Assembly (NCBI GenBank): GCA_903813345.2
Contig: CAIIXF020000007.1
Location: 2,483,730 to 2,547,729 of the forward strand
Origin: Owenia fusiformis
Lineage: Eukaryota; Annelida; Polychaeta; Sabellida; Oweniidae
Length of the DNA: 64,000 nt
Reading direction: 5' to 3'
The position numbers and the translations under genes are program-made. The stretch's first letter is position 1, and every line of letters begins with the position of its first letter. This document shows, piece by piece, positions 3,301-47,500 of the stretch. The notes under the pieces are model-generated. The model was not told where the DNA came from. It saw only the letters and a program-made list of their open reading frames with translations, and searched no databases.

Positions 3301-6300
3301 ATTCTTGTGACAAGGAACCTACAAAGACTGTTTCTGAGTCTACTGATAGTAAAGAGAAGGGGAAAGAAGCAGAAAAGAATGGAGCAGGTGATGAGAAACA
3401 AGAGGAAGATGATGACTGGAAGTGCTGTACTGTCTGTAATGTGGACTTCACCACTAAAGGAGTAAGTTAAGCTAGCCCAGTTTAAAAATGAATTTTTATG
3501 AGCTCCTCCTTTTATTATTGGTCATTATCTGAAAGAAATTTTTTTTTAAAATTTTTTAAAATCAACACCTATACAGTTTTTTATCATACCATCGGTGGGA
3601 TATAGTCGTCATAGTCATCGTGATCGTTATTGTTGTAGTGATCGTCCCACTTTTTTGTCATCGCAATTTTCAGGAAAACCACTCATCAGATTTTCTCGAA
3701 ATTTGCACATAGTTTTGAGTAAGGATACTAGCAGTTACCATTGGTTATTTGGTTTCCTGTTTAAAAAACTTTTTCTCATTTTCTGGCGCGTCACAGCGCC
3801 ATCTAGTGTTTGATAAATGAATCAAGGTTTATTCTCAATAGGGTAAGTACTAATCTATCAGGAAACATTTACAATTTAGGTTAGAAACAGAATTTTTAGA
3901 GATGGCGGAATGATTTTGGAGACTATGTAGAGCAAAACAATTTTCTGAAACAGGTAGCTTTACAGTGTTAGCTCTCTCCAGTTTCAGTTATCTCACAAAT
4001 TCGCACACATGATAGAGGGTGATCTCGTTCACATCATGTGCCTTGTTTGGTGAAAATACAAGTATATGAAAAAAGTAAGGAGGCTGGATGGGTTTTGAAG
4101 CCAGAAACAGAGGTTTTTATTTCAGGATAAAAATTGTATATTACTCGGATAAGATTTATATCTTCTTTGCTTTAATAAGAAAGAAAGAAGGCTAAAATCA
4201 TATATTACTTGAATAAACATTGTATATTCTTTGTTGTAATAATCTGTCTACTAATTTTAAGTAAGACACATAGTGTCCCCTTAGTGTCAAAAAGATAAAA
4301 TCGAGTTAGTGCTTTTTATGTCACCTCCAAAAAGTGGTGACACATGTTGTTATGGTCTCTATTTTTGTGATTGCAATCTGTGGGGGATGTTTGGTGGTTG
4401 GCGTCTGTAACAAATTCTTACAACTTCCAATGACTTAACAAATACTGTTTAGACTGACTTCAATTTTTTTCAAAATCATCTACAAGTTCTCAAAAGCTCA
4501 AATCTGACTATAGATCTGTGATTTGACCTTCTCATGAAAGAATTGACCTGAAATGAGCTTCTCAAGATTTGACCTCCAATAACCATCTAAAGGTAAAATG
4601 AGGTTGAAAAGGTAAAAAAGGTTTTTTCTCATCTTGCTTCAAATTGACCAATTTCTTTTCAAAATCATCTACAAGTTCTCAAAAGTTCAAATCTAACTAT
4701 AGATTTGAGATTTGACCTTTTGAGATTTGACCTTCTCAAGGTCAAAAAGATTCATAATATTGTGAGCAACTAGGTGGTGACATTTTGTCATGTTAATGCC
4801 TTGTTTATTTCATGTTATGGTGTTGTCTTGTTTTTCAGAATTATCACATCCATATGCGAGGAATCCTGCACATGCAGAGGGTACTAGAAAACGACAAGAA
4901 GGAAAATCCAAAGAATTATGAAGAAGTTCCAGAAGAACCTCAAACAATGGTACAGCTCCTGTTTTTAAAATACAATAGCATGAATCTACCCTGTACAAGA
5001 CCTTGACTTCATCTACACTCTGATTTAGAGAACACGTTTTAATAAGTAATATATTATCTGCCACTTAAAGCTTCTATCGAGATCATTTAGATCATGTTTA
5101 AATCTTAGGTAGAATGGATTGGCCCTTTATACAATGTGAACGTCTCGGAGTTGAGTCTCAGTTGAGTGTCAGTTGAGTTCATGATTCAGTGTTATCCTGG
5201 AGAACAATTCATTGTTGATTTAATAATATTATATATAATTATAGCCTGTTGCCATAAAGAACAAAAATTGGGAATCGGCTCAGTCCCGTAATCTGACCCC
5301 GAAAGATTTCTCCAGTAGCAGCTGTGAATTTTACTGTGAGGTGAGTACAAAACATATTTTATTACAGCAATACTTAGAAAGTGAACTCCTTGAAAAAAGT
5401 GAAAAATGGTGAAATGAAAATCGAGATTTCAGGTGTTCAATTTTGTGGGATTGCACTTTCTATAATTCTTGTTGAAAAATATATATGTCATGTGATGTAC
5501 GTATATATGCTGGTAAATATATGTATACTGTTGTTAGTGTTTAGAAGGTCTAAAGGTATGTAAATTAAGGAAGAAATCTCATCTTCGAAATCCAATATAG
5601 TAAAATCTGTTACAGGTGTTTTAGTTGAATTAATTCCTCATTTCACTGAATGCATTTACTACCAATCACAGAAACTTTGTGAGTGCACAGGCTGTGAAAT
5701 CAATTTAATGGGTTTGGAGTGTGTTCTGAACCATTGGGTACTTCGAATTTAAAATTATATATTTTTTTAAAACGTTGTGTTCGAAGACACACTCGATTCT
5801 GTCAGCCTAGATCATGTGAAATTTTGTTAGAGTAAGCATATTGTTTAATATGCTGATGACTGTTGTCACGCGAAGAAAACAATGTACTATGTTATAACTA
5901 CATATACAACAATCTGATTATACAATTATAATAGGTCAAAGAGAGTCAGCTGTTTTGGCAATTGACCATTGGTTGTATCGCTGGTTAATAGTATTTGGAG
6001 ATTCCCTTAAAATTACGTCGAAATGAAACAGACAGAAAAATTATGAAGTATGAAGCCAAACAATTGTTTGAATTCAGTTATTGTTGTAGATTAGTCTAAT
6101 ACTTTAGATTTTCCCCAGAGTAACAATTATAGACCTCTCCAAATAGTAGACCTTCTTATGGTCATAGTTCCCAGTGGACAATGGTGGAGGGATATAATTA
6201 AAATAGTCAACTTCAGGGAGGTCAAGAATTGTTCATGCTTACTTTATCTCCATTCTTTGTGCATGAATAACTTCAAAACCTCTATATGTCTTGGAGTTGA

Positions 6301-32900: not shown

Positions 32901-34982
32901 ATTAGATGCGGGACAACGTACATTGTAAATTATTTCAAATTCAGATCCCGTTGTCATTGACGATATCAAAGACGCTATATTGTGGCGATGATCGGACTTT
33001 GAATTGCATATGATACATCATCACAACAGCTTAATACATGCACAGAATTGTCGATAAAGTCCCCTGAAATGAGAGCGACGGCTATGTCCGTCATTTGTGA
33101 CAAAGGTAAAGTCAGATATTCCGGTGTGATATATAATTGTATTTTATATATGAGTTAACATTTGCTCTTATGGCGGCCGCAGCTTCAAAAAATCTATATA
33201 TTTTTTTGCGATCCTGACATTTTAATAGTACACATAGTAGCCAAGAGTATATGATAATGGTCTCAGCCATTAGTCGTCGGGACGTATTTCATGTATTTTG
33301 ACACAGATTTGTCAGATGTGTCCAAAAAGTAGATCAGCTCAAATCTTCTTATTTAATCTTCGAATAAAATGACATTACAGTGTAGTATTCTATTGTCTTT
33401 TAACATGTTTAAAGGCAAAATGGTCAGATAACTCCACTAGGTTTTCATGAGTTTGAGTATACAAATCTACCTTTAAGAAGTAAAATGTAGGTCAATTAAA
33501 AAGGGAGTCTTAACTTGAACTCTATTTGATGTCAATAATCATCAGTCTAGTTATACTCACCCCTTCCCAATTCTACGAAACCAGTAACAATGATGATGGC
33601 GAGAGCTAGCAGCTTAAACAATGTGAACAGCGATTGAACCCTAGCAGCCAATTTTACGTTGTAGGCATTCACGAATGACAGTGTTACTGGAATTTAAAGA
33701 AACAGATTTTCAAGCTTTATTGTTCTTTATCAACTGTTCGTTGCTCCTCTTAATGTCAAGTGGCGGGGAACGCTTGTGCTATTAGTGTTTTTTGTTGACC
33801 CGTATGTTCATTAGCCTATATTTGGGCATGTTCATTAGCCTATATTTGGGCATCTACTGCATCTTGTCTCTCTCCTAGTTCCATAGCAAGAGTGTCCACT
33901 TATATACTATTCTAGTATGTATTTATGTACAGTATACTTCTGAATTAAAAATTAAAGACAATATTCCCACGAACATTTCTTCCTGAGTCGCTGGAAATCT
34001 AGGGTTCATTTAAAACATACATACAGAAACATTTCTGTAGCCATCTGTTCATGTTATGAGGCATTTTACATGCTTTAGGATTCACCAACAGTGTCATGTT
34101 TTATATAGAATGCTACTGATAAGACTGCATAGACATTTACTCATGATCATTTAATTGTTATCAATTACCTTTATCTTCACGTTCCCACCAAATATGAGTA
34201 CCTGTTATCGGATTTGCTCCAATCTTTATAGGCTAACTTCGTTTGGATACCTTCACTTTGAAATAATTCTCAATATGGTCGCTACAAATTAACCATTTTT
34301 TATTTGATGTAATATATTTAGTTCAGTGCAATTTGCTGGGGAGTTGCTGTTTTTCTAACTGCTAGATTAAACAGTGTTAAATATGTTAATTGAGATTTAT
34401 TTTGATGCATGCATATGGATTATACTCACATGCTGACCAAAGTGCTACTAGAGTGACGATAACACCTGGAGAACCACAATCGTTGAAGAATAACTGAATG
34501 AGATAGGTTCCCACAGTCCTTGACAATATTGCCAGAGAAGCAGTCCGAACGATGACAATGTTTGCCCAAAGACTCATAAATCCTAATAGAGGACCAAAAA
34601 CATCATATACGTAGTAATAATCGCCGCCAGTCTTTGGTATGATTGTTCCGAGTTCTGCATAACATAGTGCAGCAAGGATGTTAATAAGTCCTCCTATTGT
34701 CCAGATGATGAGGGAAACACCGACTGATCCAACGTTCCTTGTGACTCCTTTCGGGCTGATGAAGATCCCTGATCCTATTACAGTGCCTACTATTACAGCC
34801 ACAGTGTGCATCAATGTCAGCTGGCGTTTCATTCCAACACGCTCATCATCCCCGAGCTTTTTAACAACATCATTTTCTTTTCCTTGGACGGTATCTCCAT
34901 GGATGCCATTTGAGTTTGTGTCATTCATATGAGCTTTTCCCGTGATTTTAGTTTGTGAGAGAGCACTCTCTTCTATACTCAT
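23947..34982 (-). CDS. SLC7-family amino-acid transporter (heteromeric light chain type)
   Basis: Nine minus-strand exons join in frame: 34982-34430, 33686-33561, 30863-30719, 26369-26246, 26146-26043, 25632-25536, 24734-24585, 24271-24091, 23987-23947; total 506 aa, the usual length for these light chains. The start is the ATG opening MSIEESAL. Seen: a hydrophilic N-terminus, the GSGIFISPKG motif in the first membrane segment (residues 69-78), GGDYYYVYDVFG, a cysteine at 169 (NDCGSP) where light chains are disulfide-linked to an SLC3 heavy chain, and later AYAGWEAVTSLAEE and FLRWKKPDIERPIK. The protein should exchange or carry amino acids across the plasma membrane with an SLC3 partner; the substrate cannot be told. 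The last small exon (GALSAPLREKEFK) is the least certain; without that splice, exon 8 would read on to a nearby stop. Confidence 0.9.
24770..25085. repeat. TGATATCAT-rich imperfect inverted repeat
   Basis: Dense copies of GATATCAT/ATGATATC (GGATGATATCATTAATATTGATATCATCC; GGGTGATATCAATATCATCC). Outer words CTTATACCATGGTCAAG and GACCACGGTATAAAA are also inverted. It looks like a palindromic MITE remnant in SLC7 intron 6. Confidence 0.5.
25922..26038. repeat. 117-bp hairpin element touching an SLC7 exon boundary
   Basis: Left arm GGAATACCCACGAGTTCGTAGATGAAT...ACCTCTATATAAATACAT pairs with right arm ATGTATAATAGAGGTTATTCATCTATGAGTTCTGGGGTATCC over about 42 bp. The right end stops a few bases from the donor of the exon at 26043-26146. 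Confidence 0.7.
27605..27723 (+). repeat. Interspersed GGTGACA-family repeat copy
   Basis: AGTGGTGACATATTGTTATAGTCTCCAAC...GGACGGTGTTCTGTGGTTGGCGTT...CATTTTGAATGTTAATGCC aligns with both ends of the copy at 4318-4803 with the centre missing. Confidence 0.65.
27846..28634. mobile_element. Nested MITE-like foldback, about 790 bp
   Basis: Left AGATCTAGTGCGCCCTCCATTATGATCTCCCCATGAACAAAA and right TTTTGTTCATGGGGAAATCATAATGGAGAGTGCACTGGATCC are inverted repeats. A second, inner inverted pair is GACCTGAATCGATTGCAAA (28271-28289) with TTTGCAATCGATTCAGGTC (about 28349-28367). It sits inside the 26907-29181 element. Confidence 0.65.
29561..30474. mobile_element. Inverted-repeat element with internal tandem repeats
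   Basis: It starts CCAGTAGCCAGGTTTTGGTTAGGGGG and ends GGGGGCTCCCCCTGGCTACGGGCCTG. These termini match the short element at 63475-63672, so they belong to one family. The middle (29860-30265) holds about five degenerate copies of an 80-105 bp unit with the core GGATCAAAATATATGATTT and CATTCTGGGCGATTCT. No transposase frame is present. Confidence 0.6.
30864..33560 (-). other. Intron 2 of the SLC7 gene
   Basis: A 2.7-kb intron. AT-rich, with only short chance frames; I see no further coding exon or recognisable element in it. Confidence 0.6.
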
Positions 34983-35498
34983 CTTGTAAGCCTAGCTTTA
35001 TATTTTGGATTCAAATGTATAAGTGCTGTCCGAATCCAAAAAGACTTCGATCGCTGACTAAGTTTCGAATTTACTATATGATATTTGATTATGCAAGTTA
35101 ATCATTAAATAGAATAGAGTCAAGATCCTGTACATAGATGAAATAAGTGGATCCCAGAGTGTGCGTAGCATTTACCAAGTCGATTCGCTGTATTAACATG
35201 ACCAACGTCACAGTATTGGTGTTTTAGCGTTTAAATATGGGCAGTTTGCAAACAGTACCTAATGAAAATTAATCTGCTGATAAAATCATTTCTCAGGCTA
35301 CTCAGAATCCCGCTCCGAATCCATGCCATTGGTACGGTAGGTTTCATGACTAAGCATGTTTTAGGATTTATTTTGTAAAACCATGGTCAACCACTTCAAT
35401 GATGTCACCTCAGTGTGATAAGAATTATATATACCTTGCAATACTGTACAGTGTAGACGAACTAAAAAATTAAAACGCTTATCTGAAATTAACTTTCT

Positions 35499-37553
35499 AA
35501 TTCTCCATTTCGCTGTTCGCTCTTTGAATCAGAACGTTCGCATATATGGTGCATATATGTACTCAAAAAGGACAAAATTTGATTGGTCAATATTTTTCAA
35601 CGATGCATTTCGTGTAGCTATTTGTGAGACCCGAAAGTTCTAAATCAAATTAATTACGCAATTTTGTTTTTACACCCGCAAGCTAAATAAAAAAATGACA
35701 CCATCGGAATTCTTCTTCTTTGTCATTGAATTAATAGTCAGTATACCAGATTTAATCAATAAAAGATTATACAATTAACAACAAAATTCGGAAACGAGTA
35801 TGTAAGATTTGCTTTCGAACCACTAAACTTGACCTAGATAATAGCGACGTGTCTTCTTTGGTCAAATGCTCAGTTGTTTGTGGGTTTTCAACGTAACTCT
35901 ATAATGTAATATGAAGATGAGTACTTTTATTCAGTTGTTGCATCGATGTTACAGTTTGTAGTGCGGTAATATTGGCATGAACGTGTTGAAAGTCGAATGG
36001 AATTGCTTTTTCCAATATGGCGACTAGTCACGTGACTTCTTCTCTTCCGGAATATACTCCCATTTTCAATCATTGTTTTCACCCCGTTAGGAGCCAATAA
36101 AATGAAAAAAAATATATGTTATATAAAGATTATTAAAAGACTAATTGTTTCTGATAGTTTGTTTTCTCCGATCGCATGGAGATTCGATCGAAAATATCGC
36201 TTGAAAAATGGGTATGAAAATCCCCATGTTAAACCAACGGGGAAAAACAAGGTAGAAAAATTTTGTTCCCCCGCGAACTGCATCATGGGAAATATTTTGA
36301 CCTTATAAGGAAAAACTTTCGCGCCATCTTTATTAGAGATTCAATACTACCGAATCCGCGATTTTAAGAATTGCATTCTCATAATCTGATGACTGTGAAA
36401 GGTAAATGGTGTTTATTACATCACACCAGACTTAATATTTTGAATAACAGTTTCCTTTCTTTGGATTTTCCAGTAGATCAAGGTCACATTTTGTTTCATT
36501 ATTTGCAACTGAAGTGCACCCTGAGAGTCATTTCCATGCTGTACTAGTTATGTCACCATCAGAAATGGTGACATAATAATTGTTAATAGTCAGATGTTAT
36601 AGTCTCCAACTTTTTTTGTGGACGGTGTTCGGGTAAGGGAAATAGGTCACAATATAAAACAATGGAGAAACCATAAATTAATTCTTAAAATCGCGGATTC
36701 GGTAGTATTGAATCTCTAATAAAGATGGCGCGAAAGTTTTTCCTTATAAGGTCAAAATATTTCCCATGATGCAGTTCGCGGGGGAACAAAATTTTTCTAC
36801 CTTGTTTTTCCCCGTTGGTTTAACATGGGGATTTTCATACCCATTTTTCAAGCGATATTTTCGATCGAATCTCCATGCGATCGGAGAAAACAAACTATCA
36901 GAAACAATTAGTCTTTTAATAATCTTTATATAACATATATTTTTTTTCATTTTATTGGCTCCTAACGGGGTGAAAACAATGATTGAAAATGGGAGTATAT
37001 TCCGGAAGAGAAGAAGTCACGTGACTAGTCGCCATATTGGAAAAAGCAATTCCATTCGACTTTCAACACGTTCATGCCAATATTACCGCACTACAAACTG
37101 TAACATCGATGCAACAACTGAATAAAAGTACTCATCTTCATATTACATTATAGAGTTACGTTGAAAACCCACAAACAACTGAGCATTTGACCAAAGAAGA
37201 CACGTCGCTATTATCTAGGTCAAGTTTAGTGGTTCGAAAGCAAATCTTACATACTCGTTTCCGAATTTTGTTGTTAATTGTATAATCTTTTATTGATTAA
37301 ATCTGGTATACTGACTATTAATTCAATGACAAAGAAGAAGAATTCCGATGGTGTCATTTTTTTATTTAGCTTGCGGGTGTAAAAACAAAATTGCGTAATT
37401 AATTTGATTTAGAACTTTCGGGTCTCACAAATAGCTACACGAAATGCATCGTTGAAAAATATTGACCAATCAAATTTTGTCCTTTTTGAGTACATCTATG
37501 CACCATATATGCGAACGTTCTGATTCAAAGAGCGAACAGCGAAATGGAGAATT
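35499..37553. repeat. Near-perfect inverted repeat, 874-bp arms and 307-bp spacer
   Basis: Left arm 35499-36372 is the reverse complement of right arm 36680-37553. Paired coordinates sum to 73,052 at every point checked, so there is no net insertion or deletion. The only mismatch I noticed is 35556 T against 37496 C. Each arm contains the same 68-codon frame (36102-36308 and 36744-36950), plus TCACGTGAC, CTTCCGG and AAGATGGCGCG words. The spacer (36373-36679) carries a GGTGACA-family fragment. No target-site duplication is evident. It may be a foldback-type element, a recent inverted duplication, or an assembly artefact. Confidence 0.9.
36548..36637 (+). repeat. GGTGACA-family fragment in the inverted-repeat spacer
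   Basis: TGTCACCATCAGAAATGGTGACA...TGTTATAGTCTCCAAC...GTGGACGGTGTTCGG matches the 5' part of the copies at 4318 and 27605. Confidence 0.6.
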
Positions 37554-37785
37554 GACAGTTTACACCGGTACCGTTGGCGATTGGCTGTGTACACATGAAA
37601 CCCTGGTGCACTCAATATACAGATATAGCTTGTATCAAATAATTTGTAGGTCAATACCAAAATCATAATTTACATTACAGCAATTTACATTTCACTCTGT
37701 GATCGATTTTATGGCTCATTTCTGCAAGAAAACTGAACAAATCTGCAAGAATTATATTTTCATGAGAAAGTTAAGTATTAAACAT

Positions 37786-39315: not shown

Positions 39316-40785
39316 TCAGTCATCGTGATCAAATACGGGAGGGACGTATGAGAAGCCTTCAAAAACCCCATCAGCCTCTAATACGCTCGCACTAATCTGA
39401 TTATTGTTGGTTGACTTACCAACAGACGCTGGTACTGGTTCTCGCACGAACTCAGGGTCAAAATGTTTTAGGTCCATTTGTCCTGCTACGTTTGGATTAT
39501 ATGGAGTCCTCAGCTTTCTTTCATCGAGATCCTTCCAATCGATGTTGAGAAAAAACGCGTGGTTTTTTATCTCGTTAAAGTCGTCTTTAGCACCCATTCT
39601 CATTCCTTTTTCTTTTTGTAAAAGTCCTTCTAATAAAGCCCTGGCTGGCACGGAAATGTTCGTTCTAAGACGCAGGGGCTTGTAAAGAATATTATCATAC
39701 ATTTCAGCCGTATCTCTACTATAAAATGGAGGTAAGCCATACATCATTTCATAAAGGACCGCCCCAAGACACCACCAGTCTACGGTTCGATCGTACGCCT
39801 GTTTGCGCAGGACTTCCGGGGCGAGATATTCAGGCGTACCACAGAAAGTAGAGGTCGTGCCTAACCCTTCTATATCTTCCTTACACAATCCAAAGTCTGT
39901 GAGCACTATATGACCTTGTGAATCAAGGAGAATATTCTCAGGTTTTAAGTCCCTGTAGATTATATTAAGACCATGGAGGTACCCGATTGCACTAGCCATC
40001 TCCGCTGCATAGAATCTAGCACGAGGCTCTGGAAAATATCGCTCTCTTTGTAAATGAAAGAACAGCTCTCCTCCATTTACGTAATCCAGCACAAAATAGA
40101 GCTTGTCTTGGGTCTGGAATGAGTAATGCAGGCCAACAAGAAACGGATGTTTGATATTTTTCAGCAATACGTTTCGCTCAGCCATGATATGTTTCACTTC
40201 ATTGCGTTTCATAATGGCTTGTTTGTTGAGTACTTTGATAGCGTAAACCTTGCCCTCTAGCTTATGTTTGGCAAGAAGCACCTTGCCAAAACTGCCCTTA
40301 CCAATGACCTTGAGAAATTCGAAGTCACTCGGTTTGGCATGCGTCTTTTCAGTAGGGCCCAAATTCACTGGGGCGCTCTCGTTACTATTAGTTACAGACT
40401 CAGTCTCATCCTCGTCCACTAGACTTCTCCTGGGGTTATTGATACCAAGGAATAACTGAATCTCCGGTAGTCTCAATATTGCCTGCGTATTCACAATTGT
40501 CTGAATGAATTCATGCAGGCCGGTTCTCCTTTCTTTTATGAAATCGGGATCAAGATTCCCAAAGAGTCGTTTTCCTGGTAGACGTAGATTAGCGTCCGGG
40601 AAGGCCTTTTTTAACTTCTCGTATACACTATGGAATTCATTATAGCGTCGAAATATGAACCACGACTTCCCTGCATGTGTCACTACAACTTTGTATACTG
40701 TGAATCGTTTGGATTTCTCCCAAGTTTCTGTGTCTGAGATTTGAACACTTGGTTTAGTATTTGTTGGCCTGGTAGGCGTAGCCAT
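39316..40785 (-). CDS. SGK3-like: PX-domain serine/threonine kinase, SGK3-type, intronless
   Basis: A single open frame of 489 aa, close to the length of vertebrate SGK3. A PX domain (about residues 12-120) carries the RRYNEF and RLPGKRLFG segments used to bind phosphatidylinositol 3-phosphate on endosomes. The AGC kinase domain (about 155-412) has GKGSFGKV (glycine loop), K184, [14 protein letters not shown] (D279), DFG (D297), [12 protein letters not shown] with activation-loop T313, and DVW-like [12 protein letters not shown]. The C-terminal tail ends with the hydrophobic motif FEGFSY (S479). PDK1 and TORC2 are the known kinases for these two sites in the family. All key residues are present, so the enzyme should be active. 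The coding sequence has no intron, unlike every other gene of comparable size here, which suggests retroposition or intron loss. The start ATG directly precedes the PX domain. Confidence 0.95.
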
Positions 40786-42505
40786 TGTCTGTTATCGTCA
40801 ATATTTACACTTGCTATTCAAATTAAGTTTTCTTAACTCTGTAGTTTCTAGCCTGTGTTGTTAACATGATCACACTAGCTGCATCAAATTATATCTGTTA
40901 CATTTCTTGGCCTTTCTTATACGTATGTATTTGTATGTCCGGGTTCAAGGTTCATGTGTACACCCCTAGTATGTGGTGTCTCATGACTATTTACTTAACA
41001 CCAATAAAGCGAACGCATATATGCAGTAAGCTTATATTTATGTTCGAGATAAGACTTTAATATTTCTGTTGAGCCCTTTTCATCTTTGATTGGTATGAAA
41101 ATCAAACTCGTTACTGATAAGCACCATAGACTTGGTCCAAGGGTATTTTCAATCTATTTCATATGAGCTGGGACAGTAATGTCCGATCTTGAAGGATGGG
41201 GAAGTAAGGCATATGAGCCATTTCATACCATATAAATTATAAACACAGTTTGAGTATTGTTATTGAATACGGCACTACAATTGTATAGTTTCTAAATAGC
41301 TGAATAACGCTGACATAATAGATGTCACCCTTGTTTGTCTTTGATTTTCTTGGGCCACACCTCCATTCAGTTCAATGCTAGAAACTTGCAATAGTCACTT
41401 AATTTCATGATTTGTCAAAAAGTGTTGGTTGAATCTGTCTGAAACTCGAATGGCATACTATCGGATGATACTGTTAATGTACATATTGTGATTAAACATG
41501 AAAATGTTGGTTGTCATACGAATAAGACAAGGTTTTAATGAATCTTAGCATTGCACCAATGGATATTTGGCCCAAGTTTTTTTAAATGTCATGGAAAATG
41601 ATTTAAATGACATAACTGTATAAATCAAACTTATTATTGGAGAAAACTTGTCACTGAATTCAAATATGCTATCAAAAATAAAGAAAAGTAAGTCATTAGA
41701 GGTAAAAAGTACAAATCTCTAAAAACCTCATGAAAAAAGAGATTTAGCGAGATTTTAAAGCTATTTAGAAACTACTCTATTGTAAAAATAATATGATATT
41801 ATAAAAGGCGAATTAGATGATCCACCACTGGTAAACTGAGCGCTTAGCCTATAATGTCAGTAAGGCGATTGGCAAACTATTATGTATGAAAATATTTATA
41901 TGATGAAATAAATTATTAATCTATAAACAAAACTGAGTAGGCCTAAAACTACGGACATGCATAGTCCCATAGAATTAATTAGAACACTACACAGAAATAT
42001 TGAAATATAATCCCTTCGGATCCCTAGGTTTAAATAATAACAAAGAAAATACAGCGCTGCCATCTTTATATTGGCGGAATATAATGATTCTTCTTGAACC
42101 CAGATTCTTGATAATAGTTAGAGTTGAAGATAATACAAACAATTGTTATAGCCTTGAATTCGTTATCTCCCTAGTGCAAAACACAGTGTGTGTACAGGTG
42201 TATCACATGTTTCATACGAGACGAGTTCAATAAACGTAGGTGACACTTCACCATCTTCTGATCTTCGACTTCCTGATGAACATAAGATTGGTTGGCAAAA
42301 ATGACACTTCACAATATTTACCAATAATGGAAAAGAATAATTTCGTTCGCTGAAGACTATATTCAATCAAGTAAATTGGGTACAATAGTTCACCTTTTCT
42401 CACTGAGATCAACCCTCACATAACAACGCTGTCAACAATGGGATAACATATAACAGAACGACAAACAAGACTACGGTTTCAACTTACGCGTTTTATTCAA
42501 AAGAA
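40786..42505. other. Divergent intergenic region, SGK-like (-) and SLC46-like (+)
   Basis: 1.7 kb between two divergent start codons, so it should hold both promoters and 5' UTRs. I see AT-rich sequence and no further gene or clear TATA box at a defined start. Confidence 0.55.
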
Positions 42506-45500
42506 ATGACGGAGAGGAACCGTGAACGCGACCCACTTCTTCTTTCTACAACTATAGATAAAACAGAGGAGGAAGCATTTGTAAAATCGGCTCCAAGGAG
42601 TCGTAGACCAGGTCCAATAAGTAAGCGAACAATAATAGTGGAACCTACAATATTTTTATATTTTCTCGCCTCTACTCCAACTGTAACGCTAACAGAGCAA
42701 TTTGTTTATCATATGGTTGGAAAGGAGTATCACGGTGATGACGACGCCACACATGAGGAGACGCAGTGTAGTGCTGCCAATGAATCAGCATCAGAAGCTG
42801 AACTCAGAGCCACAATACAAGCACAGGCCTCCCGTTGGATGCTGTATTTGAATGCATCTATTCTTGTCCCCCAGTTCTTCATGGTGCTCATATTAGGTGC
42901 TTACTCTGACATAGGGGGTAGAAAGTGTGTTATCTTAATATCAATAGCAGGAACGTGTTTGCATTGTATTTCCAATGTTATCATAATGTATTTAGACTTG
43001 GGTATCGAGTATTTGATAATAGGATGCGTGCTTGAGGGATTAAGTGGCGGTGGATCTGCCCTCACGAGCGCAAGTTTTGCCTACATTGCAGACATTACAG
43101 TACTAGATGATAGATCGTTTAGAATGACCGCACTTAACGCAGTGCTGGGTATATCGGGTGCAGCTGCCCAATTGGGTATTGGGTACTGGATAAACATTGC
43201 AGGATACCTACCCCCTTTCTGGTTTGTGTCCGGCGTTCACATTGTCAACATTTTCTATGTTATACTCTTTGTACCTGAATTAAATCAACAGAAAAACAAA
43301 AATGGTAATTTCAATCCATGTCGGGATATTAAAAATGCCACTTCTTTGTATTATAAAACAGATACGTCTGGAAGGAACTGGAAGCTTTTGGTACTCCTCA
43401 TAAGCTTCGCTTTAGTCGCAATGCTCGCCAATGGCAGGGATGACGTACTTACCCTTTTTATGCTTAACAGGCCCCTGTGCTGGAATTCAATTTTCATTGG
43501 ATACTTCACCGCGACATGGACCTTATTGATGAATTTAGGAGGCATGGTCGGAGTTAAACTTTTCGATAGATGTTTTACTGATGGGGGAATGATAATGATT
43601 GCGTCCGTTCTTGGTACAGCGACGCAGGTTATCCAAGCCTTTGCAAGAAACATAATTATGATGTTCATTGGTATATATAGCTAACATTCTTACGCATAGC
43701 CTTCATTACAACCTATTTTCTATTTTGCTGTTTTTTGTCTCTTCACTCTTGAATTTGTGCTGCACTTGCTGTTTTTATCGGTTCACTCATCACTCTTGGT
43801 TTGTGCTGCATTCACTGTTTTATCATTTATATTCACTCTTGATCTGGTGCTGCGTTTGCTGTTTTTGCCAATTCACATCTCTCAATTTTGTAGGACCAGT
43901 ACTTGGAATGTTTGCATCGATGTTCCTGCCACTAATTCGAGCTATCATGTCTAAGACTGTCATGGACGATGAACAGGGTGCATTGTTTGCTGGAATAGGG
44001 TGCGTAGAAACTGCATGCGTGCTTGGTGGCAGCTCCTTCTTCAACATGATATATGCAGTCACAGTCCACTGGTTTGGTGGCTTCGTATTTCTAGTTATGG
44101 GAGGGATCTCCCTGCTCAGTATGGTAACGTTTGGGTAAGTTTCACATGATAACATCTTAATTCACAAGGTTTCAGTTGCTTCACCATATATCAACATCTT
44201 GGAAGTCGAATATTACGTGATAATGTACGAACAGGGTGTCGATGCATAATCAACGCCACCCATGGGGGCTCTCTCTTTGTTCAGATCATCTATTGTACAT
44301 TGAGATCAAGAATTTCATGGACAAGAAATTAGCTTAAAAAGTTGTGGTAATTCAAAGCATGGGACATCTATAATTAAGCAACTTCAATATTTTCCTCAAA
44401 AATACCGACGTGATTGTGTCCGTGGTGAAGGGATATTTTGTAATTTAAAAATGTCATGTATGACTGACGATTCAATTCAAAAAGTTTTATTAAGTTTTAT
44501 TTAATTTTAAAGACAAAAATTCTTTAAGTAGCCTTTCATTAATCATTTTTAATTTCCATGTTTGGTGTCCCCCCTCAAAAAATTGTACCGACACAAACAT
44601 AAAATAATCCCGTGTGTGACAAATGGAATATTCTTCAACTTCGAACATCTGCAGACTATTCACTGAAATAAAGTTTGTTTTAGTCGTCATGATCACCCAT
44701 TTTCAACATTTGGGATGACATTCAGGTCTGATTGACCTGAATTTCTCCGTTAGCAATTTACTAATTTCTAAGAATTTTTAACTTGCAAAGCTAACTGGAA
44801 AATTGTTTTCTTTACGATCATGTGCAAAGCTCAGCCTTTTCGAAGAAAGAAAAACAGCACTTTGGGGTTTATTTTGGTACGATTCTTTGACTCGGAGTAC
44901 ACCGAATATGTATAGTATAGAAATTATTTATTCACATTTAATTGCACATACTAACACGAGGCATGTGATTTTAAAATATTGAATTACTGCATCCCTGGGC
45001 CTCGGTGTTAATCCAAATGCTATCATTTGAATACTATAATTCAGTAGAAACTATTTATTTTAGAATAACACAATTTGTAAAAAGACATTTTCTATGCGGC
45101 CTCCTGAAATTGAATTGTTAAACGAAAATACGCTGCAGCACATGGCGCAGAACCAGAACTTTAATGGCAGCTATTAGGCGCAAGAGGAATATTCCATCAT
45201 ATCCCAGAAGTACTTTTCCCTTCTGATCCAAACTGCGAAAATATTAATATTGGTATTTTTGATGTTTTCTTATTCTTGCTGTGCTCTGCTACAATTTTTG
45301 GTCCTTTCTCTTTGGCACTTGTGCATACATTGTATAAATATATACGGGGTAACCAGTATTAATTAACGTATAACCAACACAGTACACAAGGCAACATTTT
45401 AAGGAGCTAGGGATTAACAGCTATTCGTGAATTGTCATTTTGCTGAGTAAGCATTAACGTTTGTAAAATATTACATCAAGCCCTTCATTATCCTTGGGTT

Positions 45501-47500
45501 GTCCTGTCATCCACTTCTTCTCTGACACAAGACCCCATTCTTTATATCCAAGCTTTGTGAAAAAGTCTCGCAAATCTCGCAGTTTTGACAAAGTGTTTAT
45601 CCCATCTCTGTATTCAATAGAAAAAACTCTCACAGAAATCTTAGTGAAGTCAATTGTTTTTAACACCTGCATTTCTGCACCTTCTACGTCCAATGAGAAA
45701 TAATCAATAAATGTGAAATTGAGGGCCGCGGCGACAGAATGGAACGGAAAACATTGTACAGTGATCGTACCAATATCGTATTCCTTCATTCGATTACCAT
45801 TTAGTTTATTCAAACTGTCTAGATTGCCACTAAAAGTGCCGAAGTTCGCAAATTTAATTTTCTCCATTTTGTTGTTAGAACTAAGGCAGGAGTTCAGGTG
45901 CCAAGCCTGCCTCCTCCAGCCTATGAGTTTGTTATACATCCCGGGGATCGGTTCTACCAAGACCCCCGTCCAATTACGGAATTTTTCAAAGAATATTGTG
46001 TTGGACGAGATGCCATCAGCTGCTCCACTTTCAACATAAACTCCATTCGTCTTACCTGCAATATGATAACAGATACAATAGACAATTAACATTTTTTGCA
46101 TTCGTTTGACTTAGCTTCTTCGTTTGACATAGCTTCTTCAAGTTCTACTCATAAGCATTTCTTATACTAGCATATCTCAGATATATATAAATATATTGGT
46201 TGCAGTATTTATAGATGCCCCCACCCATCTGACGAAATTCAAAGTTATAGGAAACATCATAGATGGTGCCACTTGTGGAAAAGACTGATGAATCCTGCAA
46301 ATTACAAACTTTATGCATAACCAACTATACCTTTCAGTATTTGATCAACTACACCAGCTTGACCTGCCTGGCCATAATATCTGTCTTTGGCTTCTTCCCC
46401 ACCATAGACTCTCTTTGTAGGTGGCACTAACCAATATTTCCGTAAGAATCTGAGCAATTTGGGGTCTTCAACGTAGGAGCCGATTAGATACTTTTCCAGT
46501 TCATTATATGTTTCGTTGTAACTGAGCCTTTTATTGTCATCCTTTGATTTTAGAATGTCTGTTACAACATGATTCTCTTTGCGTTTATATGTAATGCAGT
46601 TTTTGTGAGCTACAAATGATGCACCATCGTTACTCAAATTATTTTCTGATCTTTTATTGAGCGCAATCTTAAGCAGCCAGCGAGGAAGAAATACCGAAAC
46701 ATTTGCTGAACAAAATATGACTAAAATCCACAACAATTTTCCCAATGTTCGCATTTTTATTTTTCAACTGTGTACTATTTTTAAATCATTTACACATGTT
46801 AGACTAGTCTACAATAAATATGAGTACAAGATATTTTGACTGGACTAAACTGGCCATTAATAGATACCAATGTTTACAAAAAGATTAATTGGGATTTTCA
46901 AAATAATCATCTGATGATTTGTTTTTTTCATCCTAAAAACTTGGAGCTCTAAATACATTAAACAAGCACGATTTTACGAAACATCATACGCACATGTTCA
47001 ATGATTGCAATTCGTCTGAAATACTAGTTCAAACATGACCGTGCTCTAATTGAATTTCTTAACCAATCGGAATGCCAATAACCAATAATGAACGTTGGGC
47101 AGAATGTCGTACAAAGCACGAACCGAAGGTGATTGCATTTGCAATGACATTCTGTCCAACTCGTGCTGAATGTCACCATATTGAATGACCTATCATTATT
47201 TATTTCTTAAATAATTGTTAAGTCAAGATGGGCTAAATGACAGAGTATAGCCTACTCAGTGTTCAAATGTTTGATCCTAGTACATATTCAGATATTGCGA
47301 AATGCATCGAAACGTTTTACACACCGATAATAAAATAAGCCATTATATTTTGTAATAGTATAAATAGTTGTCTCGATACCAACAGTAATTTCTTTTCTTT
47401 TTCCAGGATTTACATGAAAATGTCAGGTATGCATTTATTAGTGTTCAAACAGAGAGAGAAAATCCGATCGACTCTTTCCTCGGATGAATCCAAAGTGTAA
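42506..47500 (+). CDS. SLC46-family major facilitator transporter
   Basis: Three exons join in frame: 42506-43670, 43894-44134 and 47407-47500; 499 aa plus stop. After a charged N-terminus (TERNRERDPLLL) comes EPTIFLYFLASTPTVTLTEQ, typical of the first membrane segment of the SLC46 group (folate/heme transporter PCFT, SLC46A2, SLC46A3). A long acidic loop follows, then LGAYSDIGGRKCVILIS, which contains the MFS loop 2-3 motif, and about twelve hydrophobic segments in all. The last exon encodes a short cytosolic tail ending in SDESKV. Family members move small solutes with protons across plasma or lysosomal membranes; the substrate is not deducible. Intron 2 holds another gene on the opposite strand. 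Confidence 0.88.
43687..43890 (+). repeat. Degenerate tandem repeat filling SLC46-like intron 1
   Basis: Three to four copies of about 55 bp (CACTCTTGAATTTGTGCTGCACTTGCTGTTTTT and variants) occupy nearly all of the 223-bp intron. Confidence 0.65.
45454..46754 (-). CDS. FkbM-type methyltransferase-domain protein, membrane-anchored
   Basis: Two minus-strand exons (46754-46331, 46055-45454) join in frame to 341 aa. Residues 5-30 form a hydrophobic segment after a short basic start, as in a type II membrane protein or uncleaved signal anchor. The C-terminal half has the SAM-binding GVYVESGAADGISSNT motif, then WTGVLVEPIPGMYNKL and YFSLDVEGAEMQVLKTIDF, all typical of the FkbM methyltransferase fold (Methyltransf_21). 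Animal members of this kind are poorly characterised, so acceptor and product are unknown. The whole gene lies inside intron 2 of the SLC46-like gene on the opposite strand. Confidence 0.85.

Follow-up and report, generated by a model that had tools for sequence, protein, structure and literature searches.

The window analysed here is a 64,000-nucleotide stretch of the genome of the annelid Owenia fusiformis and lies on contig C7 of the host assembly (498 Mb in 525 contigs, 12 of them chromosome-sized). Self-comparison of the window revealed two 874-nt arms in opposite orientation that pair without a gap around a 307-nt spacer, and that differ at a lone position where T at 35556 meets a partner at 37496 that reads G on the reverse strand (Table 1). 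An earlier note, made from the letters of the sequence, had described these arms with the same coordinates, single mismatch and spacer, all of which we recovered. Its placement of the repeat 0.5-2.6 kb before the start of an SLC7 gene also fits, as both arms lie about that far upstream of an open frame that matches AA_permease_2. Chance cannot explain an arm match of 874 nt. Similarity ends abruptly beyond the arm edges, the outer flanks differ from each other, and the spacer itself is non-palindromic. Among the best 40 matches scored in the host genome, the spacer has a full-length match at its own place only, and a part of it at about 36545-36632 (spacer positions 173-260) resembles a small dispersed repeat. 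As to structured RNA, the stretch 35400-37700 had no Rfam match with an E of 1 or below, and a single arm folded alone had a z of -1.5, with 2 of 20 shuffles folding equally well.

Several other genes are found in the window. On the minus strand, 39319-40791 holds a 491-aa open frame with a PX domain, a protein kinase domain and a kinase C-terminal domain, whose closest match in the PDB is SGK1; it is possibly a retrocopy or a single-exon SGK3-like gene. An open frame at 42407-43681 (plus strand) matches the major facilitator family, its sole PDB match being the proton-coupled folate transporter, and one at 45457-46110 (minus strand) carries a Methyltransf_21 (FkbM) domain. A Talin domain was also matched among the window genes; like the SGK1-like kinase, it points to an animal.

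Table 1. Features of the inverted repeat and the gene nearest to it (window positions).
Feature	Position	Strand	Remarks
SLC7-like amino-acid permease, N-terminal part (nearest gene)	34389..34991	-	open frame; AA_permease_2, E 6e-16
Element copy 1	35499..36372	+	equals the majority sequence of 88 aligned copies; target-derived AAT and ATT ends included
AAT, 5' end of copy 1	35499..35501	+	outer A plus putative AT target duplication; based on the end/flank table and on empty sites of other copies
ATT, counterpart end of copy 1	36370-36372		matches AAT at 35499..35501
Spacer	36373..36679	.	host DNA between both insertion sites
Element copy 2	36680..37553	-	opposite orientation to copy 1; one private substitution at 37496
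Inner (3') end of copy 2	36680..36682	-	AAT when read on the plus strand
Outer end of copy 2	37551-37553		ATT when read on the plus strand

A homogeneous family of 874-bp elements

Each arm is a copy of an element that is dispersed through the host genome. With one arm as the query, 37 of the best 40 among 645 first-look candidates were 100% identical over positions 1-874, arm 1 being one of them; any two places among the best 40 lie at least 50 kb apart, and arm 2 is absent from that set. The 24-mer of the left end has 81 exact places in the host genome and 232 with at most two mismatches (100 listed), while the 26-mer of the right end has 88 places with at most three mismatches, all listed, 84 of which are exact. 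A genome search for other arm copies, which the earlier note had proposed as a check, thus counted 88 with both window arms included, and these are spread over the 12 chromosome-sized contigs. In the first four copies compared the ends are identical and the flanks different, and flanks vary from copy to copy throughout.

Two sets of copies underlie the figures that follow, and both contain the two window arms. The table of ends and flanks holds 84 copies, leaving out L037 (no exact right end), L005, L006 and L086 (not of the same subfamily) and L100-L102. The alignment holds 88, with L037, L100, L101 and L102 included and the older sister copies L086 and L103 left out. Length is exactly 874 bp in 68 of the 84 copies with both ends scored and 871-875 bp in the other 16. 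One common sequence, that of arm 1, is present in 37 of the 88 aligned copies; zero substitutions were counted in 43, copies carry 0.85 substitutions on average, and the median difference between two copies is 1 substitution, which is also the difference between the window arms. If neutral substitutions accrue at 1e-9 to 1e-8 per site and year, which is our own assumption, the divergence of 0.001 per site corresponds to roughly 0.1 to 1 million years.

The longest open reading frame wholly inside the element, in unspliced frames, encodes 68 aa, and the element must be moved in trans. Its ends, read inward, are TCTCC and TCTTA, and it has short, imperfect terminal inverted repeats. These are clearer in an older sister subfamily (CTC...), of which nine copies were sampled; the left end there reads AATTCTCC[C/T]TTTCGCGG and the right end mostly CGAGAATT. 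These sister copies are mostly 870-890 bp long (one ends short and one has about 1.1 kb extra), and are 2-7% diverged among themselves and 13-16% from the 874-bp element. Remoter relatives (L096, L099) are about 70-78% similar. Together, the older sister subfamily and the remote relatives indicate that this lineage gave successive bursts of non-coding copies. At L098 (201-459) a relative of about 260 bp is internally deleted with both ends kept. The older sister copy at L087 contains, at about 838-1946 in reverse-complement orientation, an insert of about 1.1 kb with inverted ends GGGGTCAAAATAT...ATATTTTGACCCC, which looks like another transposon.

In being non-coding and uniform in length, with many dispersed near-identical copies, defined ends and a target preference, the element resembles MITEs, although its terminal inverted repeats are weak. 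Most MITEs are also shorter than 870 bp. A solo-LTR origin was rejected, as no same-strand pair a few kb apart occurs among the 88 copies.

A target of the AATT type and the empty sites of three further copies

In the 84 copies the left end is NATT (first base A in 80, T in 3 and G in 1) and the right end AATT, so that the AT core is constant in all 84 and the outer first base varies in four. One of four additional copies, L101, deviates at both ends, with AACT on the left and AATA on the right. Just outside AATT, the left flank has T or C in 61 of the 84 copies and A in seven, and the right flank has G or A in 73.

Empty sites come from three other element copies, and it is from these that we infer the target of both window copies. 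At the L015 copy, which lies in an array repeat, the empty site is a single AATT in four matches to that repeat, namely two neighbouring units of the array, window 4567-4748 and L024. The tandem-array repeat unit is common to window 4464-4748, L015 and L024. A single AATT is also the empty site in the L016 duplication (97.4% identity, no gap). The L085 copy occupies a site with GATT on the left and AATT on the right. Its paralogous empty sites, 12 loci taken from the best 40 of 66 candidates (two of the 40 being halves of L085), read GATT in seven of nine readable cases (L109-L115), AATT in L117 and GATA in L118; L116, L119 and L120, without the search word, are not among the nine. Judging from its coding look, the repeat that holds the L085 copy may be LINE-like. 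Empty-site matches for L022 and L038, at 70-76% identity, have TATG and AGTT instead of AATT, and we hold these alignments to be too diverged to decide the target.

Our first reading, a 4-bp AATT duplication, was dropped. Such a duplication would leave the same four bases on both sides, yet four of the 84 copies have T or G as the first base with AATT on the right, and GATT occurs at empty sites. To the question of flanking duplications raised in the earlier note, the AATT or GATT empty sites at other copies therefore answer that a duplication of 4 bp is disfavoured. A later A-to-G change at the L085 copy is still conceivable, given the AATT in L117. The ends agree with N|AT|T and a duplicated AT of 2 bp, and would agree as well with blunt insertion at the centre of AATT, because this palindrome makes the two indistinguishable. 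Judged by title or the start of the abstract, none of the few papers returned in searches for such a target treats AATT as a transposon target.

Probable affiliation with ISL2EU transposons

The PHIS superfamily comprises PIF/Harbinger, ISL2EU and Spy. ISL2EU elements are described as follows: they cut A|AT|T and duplicate AT, their autonomous members encode two proteins (a DDE/HTH/THAP transposase and YqaJ), their terminal inverted repeats usually start with GG, and they are known from animals only (PMC4482050). For Spy, the target is given as AAATTT with no duplication (PMC4482050, PMC11304231).

Loci of the ISL2EU type are present in the host genome. PF09588 (YqaJ) has 40 matches among 46 candidates scored, and PF13359 (DDE_Tnp_4) at least 150, counted in the best 150 of 269 candidates. 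Pairing the two lists by eye shows many YqaJ and DDE_Tnp_4 matches side by side in opposite orientation, and many of the matches fall in long open frames. Other YqaJ/DDE_Tnp_4 loci have equal scores and frame lengths, which suggests that further groups are young and perhaps active. One ISL2EU-type coding locus spans about 8.2 kb (C2:11164900-11173139) and is directly followed, head-to-tail, by a further copy.

One ISL2EU-type group, group B, with copies on contigs C2 and C1, has ends AAT|AGACATATTC... or AAT|AGTCCTATTC..., and at its C2 locus the other end, ...CTCT|ATT, lies about 8.2 kb away; judged from occupied loci, these ends appear to fit the same A|AT|T rule. About 40 bp inside the YqaJ-side end of group B lies AAATATTTCCCATGATGCA; these 19 bp recur exactly in the 874-bp element, 75 bp from the right end of the latter, and could be a common promoter motif. 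The terminal inverted repeats of group B and of the element match only loosely, and the coding locus on C2 starts with AG versus TC in the element. Across the flanks of eight ISL2EU-type groups, as grouped by us, the end motif and the 19-mer occur together in group B only; in addition, we covered further copies and right sides of group B, two stretches at C8:37708352, and three more loci on their YqaJ side. Other groups gave short, weak matches to the element family (best E 0.007), and group D matched one older relative (E 6e-10), a match driven by repeats. A one-mismatch end pattern also matched L142, L143 and L145, which we judged to be chance.

No autonomous copy with the element's own ends was found in end-pattern searches of the host genome and on inspection of L096-L099 and L104-L108. 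One end-pattern search returned a single place (C10:23928639, which is L099), another returned 85 places, all among the 88 right-end copies, and a further one returned 13, five of which were inspected. L107 was rejected as an autonomous partner: its open reading frames do not exceed 106 aa, and it shows no similarity with the element family.

On this sequence evidence we consider the 874-bp element to be probably a non-autonomous, ISL2EU-like transposon. The likeness lies in the A|AT|T insertion and in the presence of YqaJ and DDE_Tnp_4 loci in the same genome, one of them with fitting ends and the subterminal 19-mer. The element differs from ISL2EU in being without coding capacity and in having short, imperfect terminal repeats that start with TC rather than GG. 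Those TC ends, the autonomous copy sought without success and the palindromic target, which leaves the duplication length ambiguous, give some room to a less likely alternative, namely that the element is a non-autonomous member of another group, whether Spy-like without target duplication or of another superfamily with an AT-rich target. Spy is a relative within PHIS and has an AT-rich palindromic target, and blunt insertion at A/T is possible for our element too. Against this, the bases outside AATT make the target mostly YAATTR and not the AAATTT of Spy, and A|AT|T fits ISL2EU. Either affiliation is compatible with two insertions at the window locus.

Origin of the pair

All four junctions of the window arms sit exactly at the termini of solo copies, and the host bases outside them are all different. 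We regard the inverted repeat, with high confidence, as two independent and recent insertions of one element in opposite orientation, 307 bp apart. On this reading the element is a MITE-like, non-autonomous cut-and-paste DNA transposon of about 870 bp, with no coding capacity seen, that was inserted twice, probably with an ISL2EU-group transposase of the PHIS superfamily supplied in trans, cutting A|AT|T and duplicating AT. The arms would be alike through the very recent spread of the whole family.

Among the 88 copies (older sister copies were left out of these counts), the window pair is the only pair within 2.1 kb. Random placement on the 12 large contigs gave a mean of 0.03 such pairs in 5000 simulations, with at least one in 3%, so that the close pair may owe something to local hopping or to a preferred site. 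At larger distances the copies are not clustered: two pairs were observed within 60 kb against 0.95 expected, three within 300 kb against 4.8, and 16 within 1 Mb against 15.9. The pairing looks accidental.

The rarity of close pairs under random placement, together with the adjacency and near-identity of the arms, speaks for a local event in which a single insertion gave rise to an inverted duplicate, by foldback or replication template switch, or in which the arms were homogenised by local gene conversion. We consider this very improbable, since a local duplication would be expected to carry host flank with it, whereas the arms end at element termini with four different host junctions, and since two copies picked at random are as similar as the arms. 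The earlier note had offered recent origin or gene conversion as the reason for their similarity; recency is borne out by the young family and its median difference of one substitution, which the arms share, and neither gene conversion nor an inverted duplication at the locus is needed.

A still smaller chance falls to an assembly foldback artefact, which the earlier note had named as the main alternative. The arms stop at the termini of solo copies, the spacer is non-palindromic and the outer flanks differ, and 88 copies on 12 chromosome-sized contigs mark the element as a genuine dispersed repeat. Foldback (FB) elements likewise have a large inverted repeat around a spacer, and it is in shape that the whole 2055-bp structure resembles a foldback transposon with long terminal inverted repeats; that it is one mobile unit is extremely unlikely, however, because the spacer has one full-length place among the 40 matches scored and no other pair within 2.1 kb occurs among the 88 copies, so that each arm moves alone and there is no sign that the foldback ever moved whole.

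Two independent insertions thus remove a striking hairpin from the candidate regulatory structures and put a simple transposition history in its place, the inverted repeat being most likely the ordinary outcome of a recent burst of transposition. Nothing observed here speaks either for or against the long hairpin RNA that the earlier note proposed as a possible Dicer substrate. In maize, the Mu killer locus silences Mutator via a hairpin RNA. By analogy, read-through from a nearby promoter could produce a hairpin RNA of 870 bp with a match to each of the 88 copies of this perhaps still mobile element, which would make the window pair a natural silencing locus; we give this idea very little weight, though if the pair is transcribed, it would offer a natural experiment on whether a whole transposon family can be silenced by one inverted pair. 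More generally, a very young non-autonomous family beside coding ISL2EU-type loci makes the genome of O. fusiformis a good place to seek ongoing transposition.
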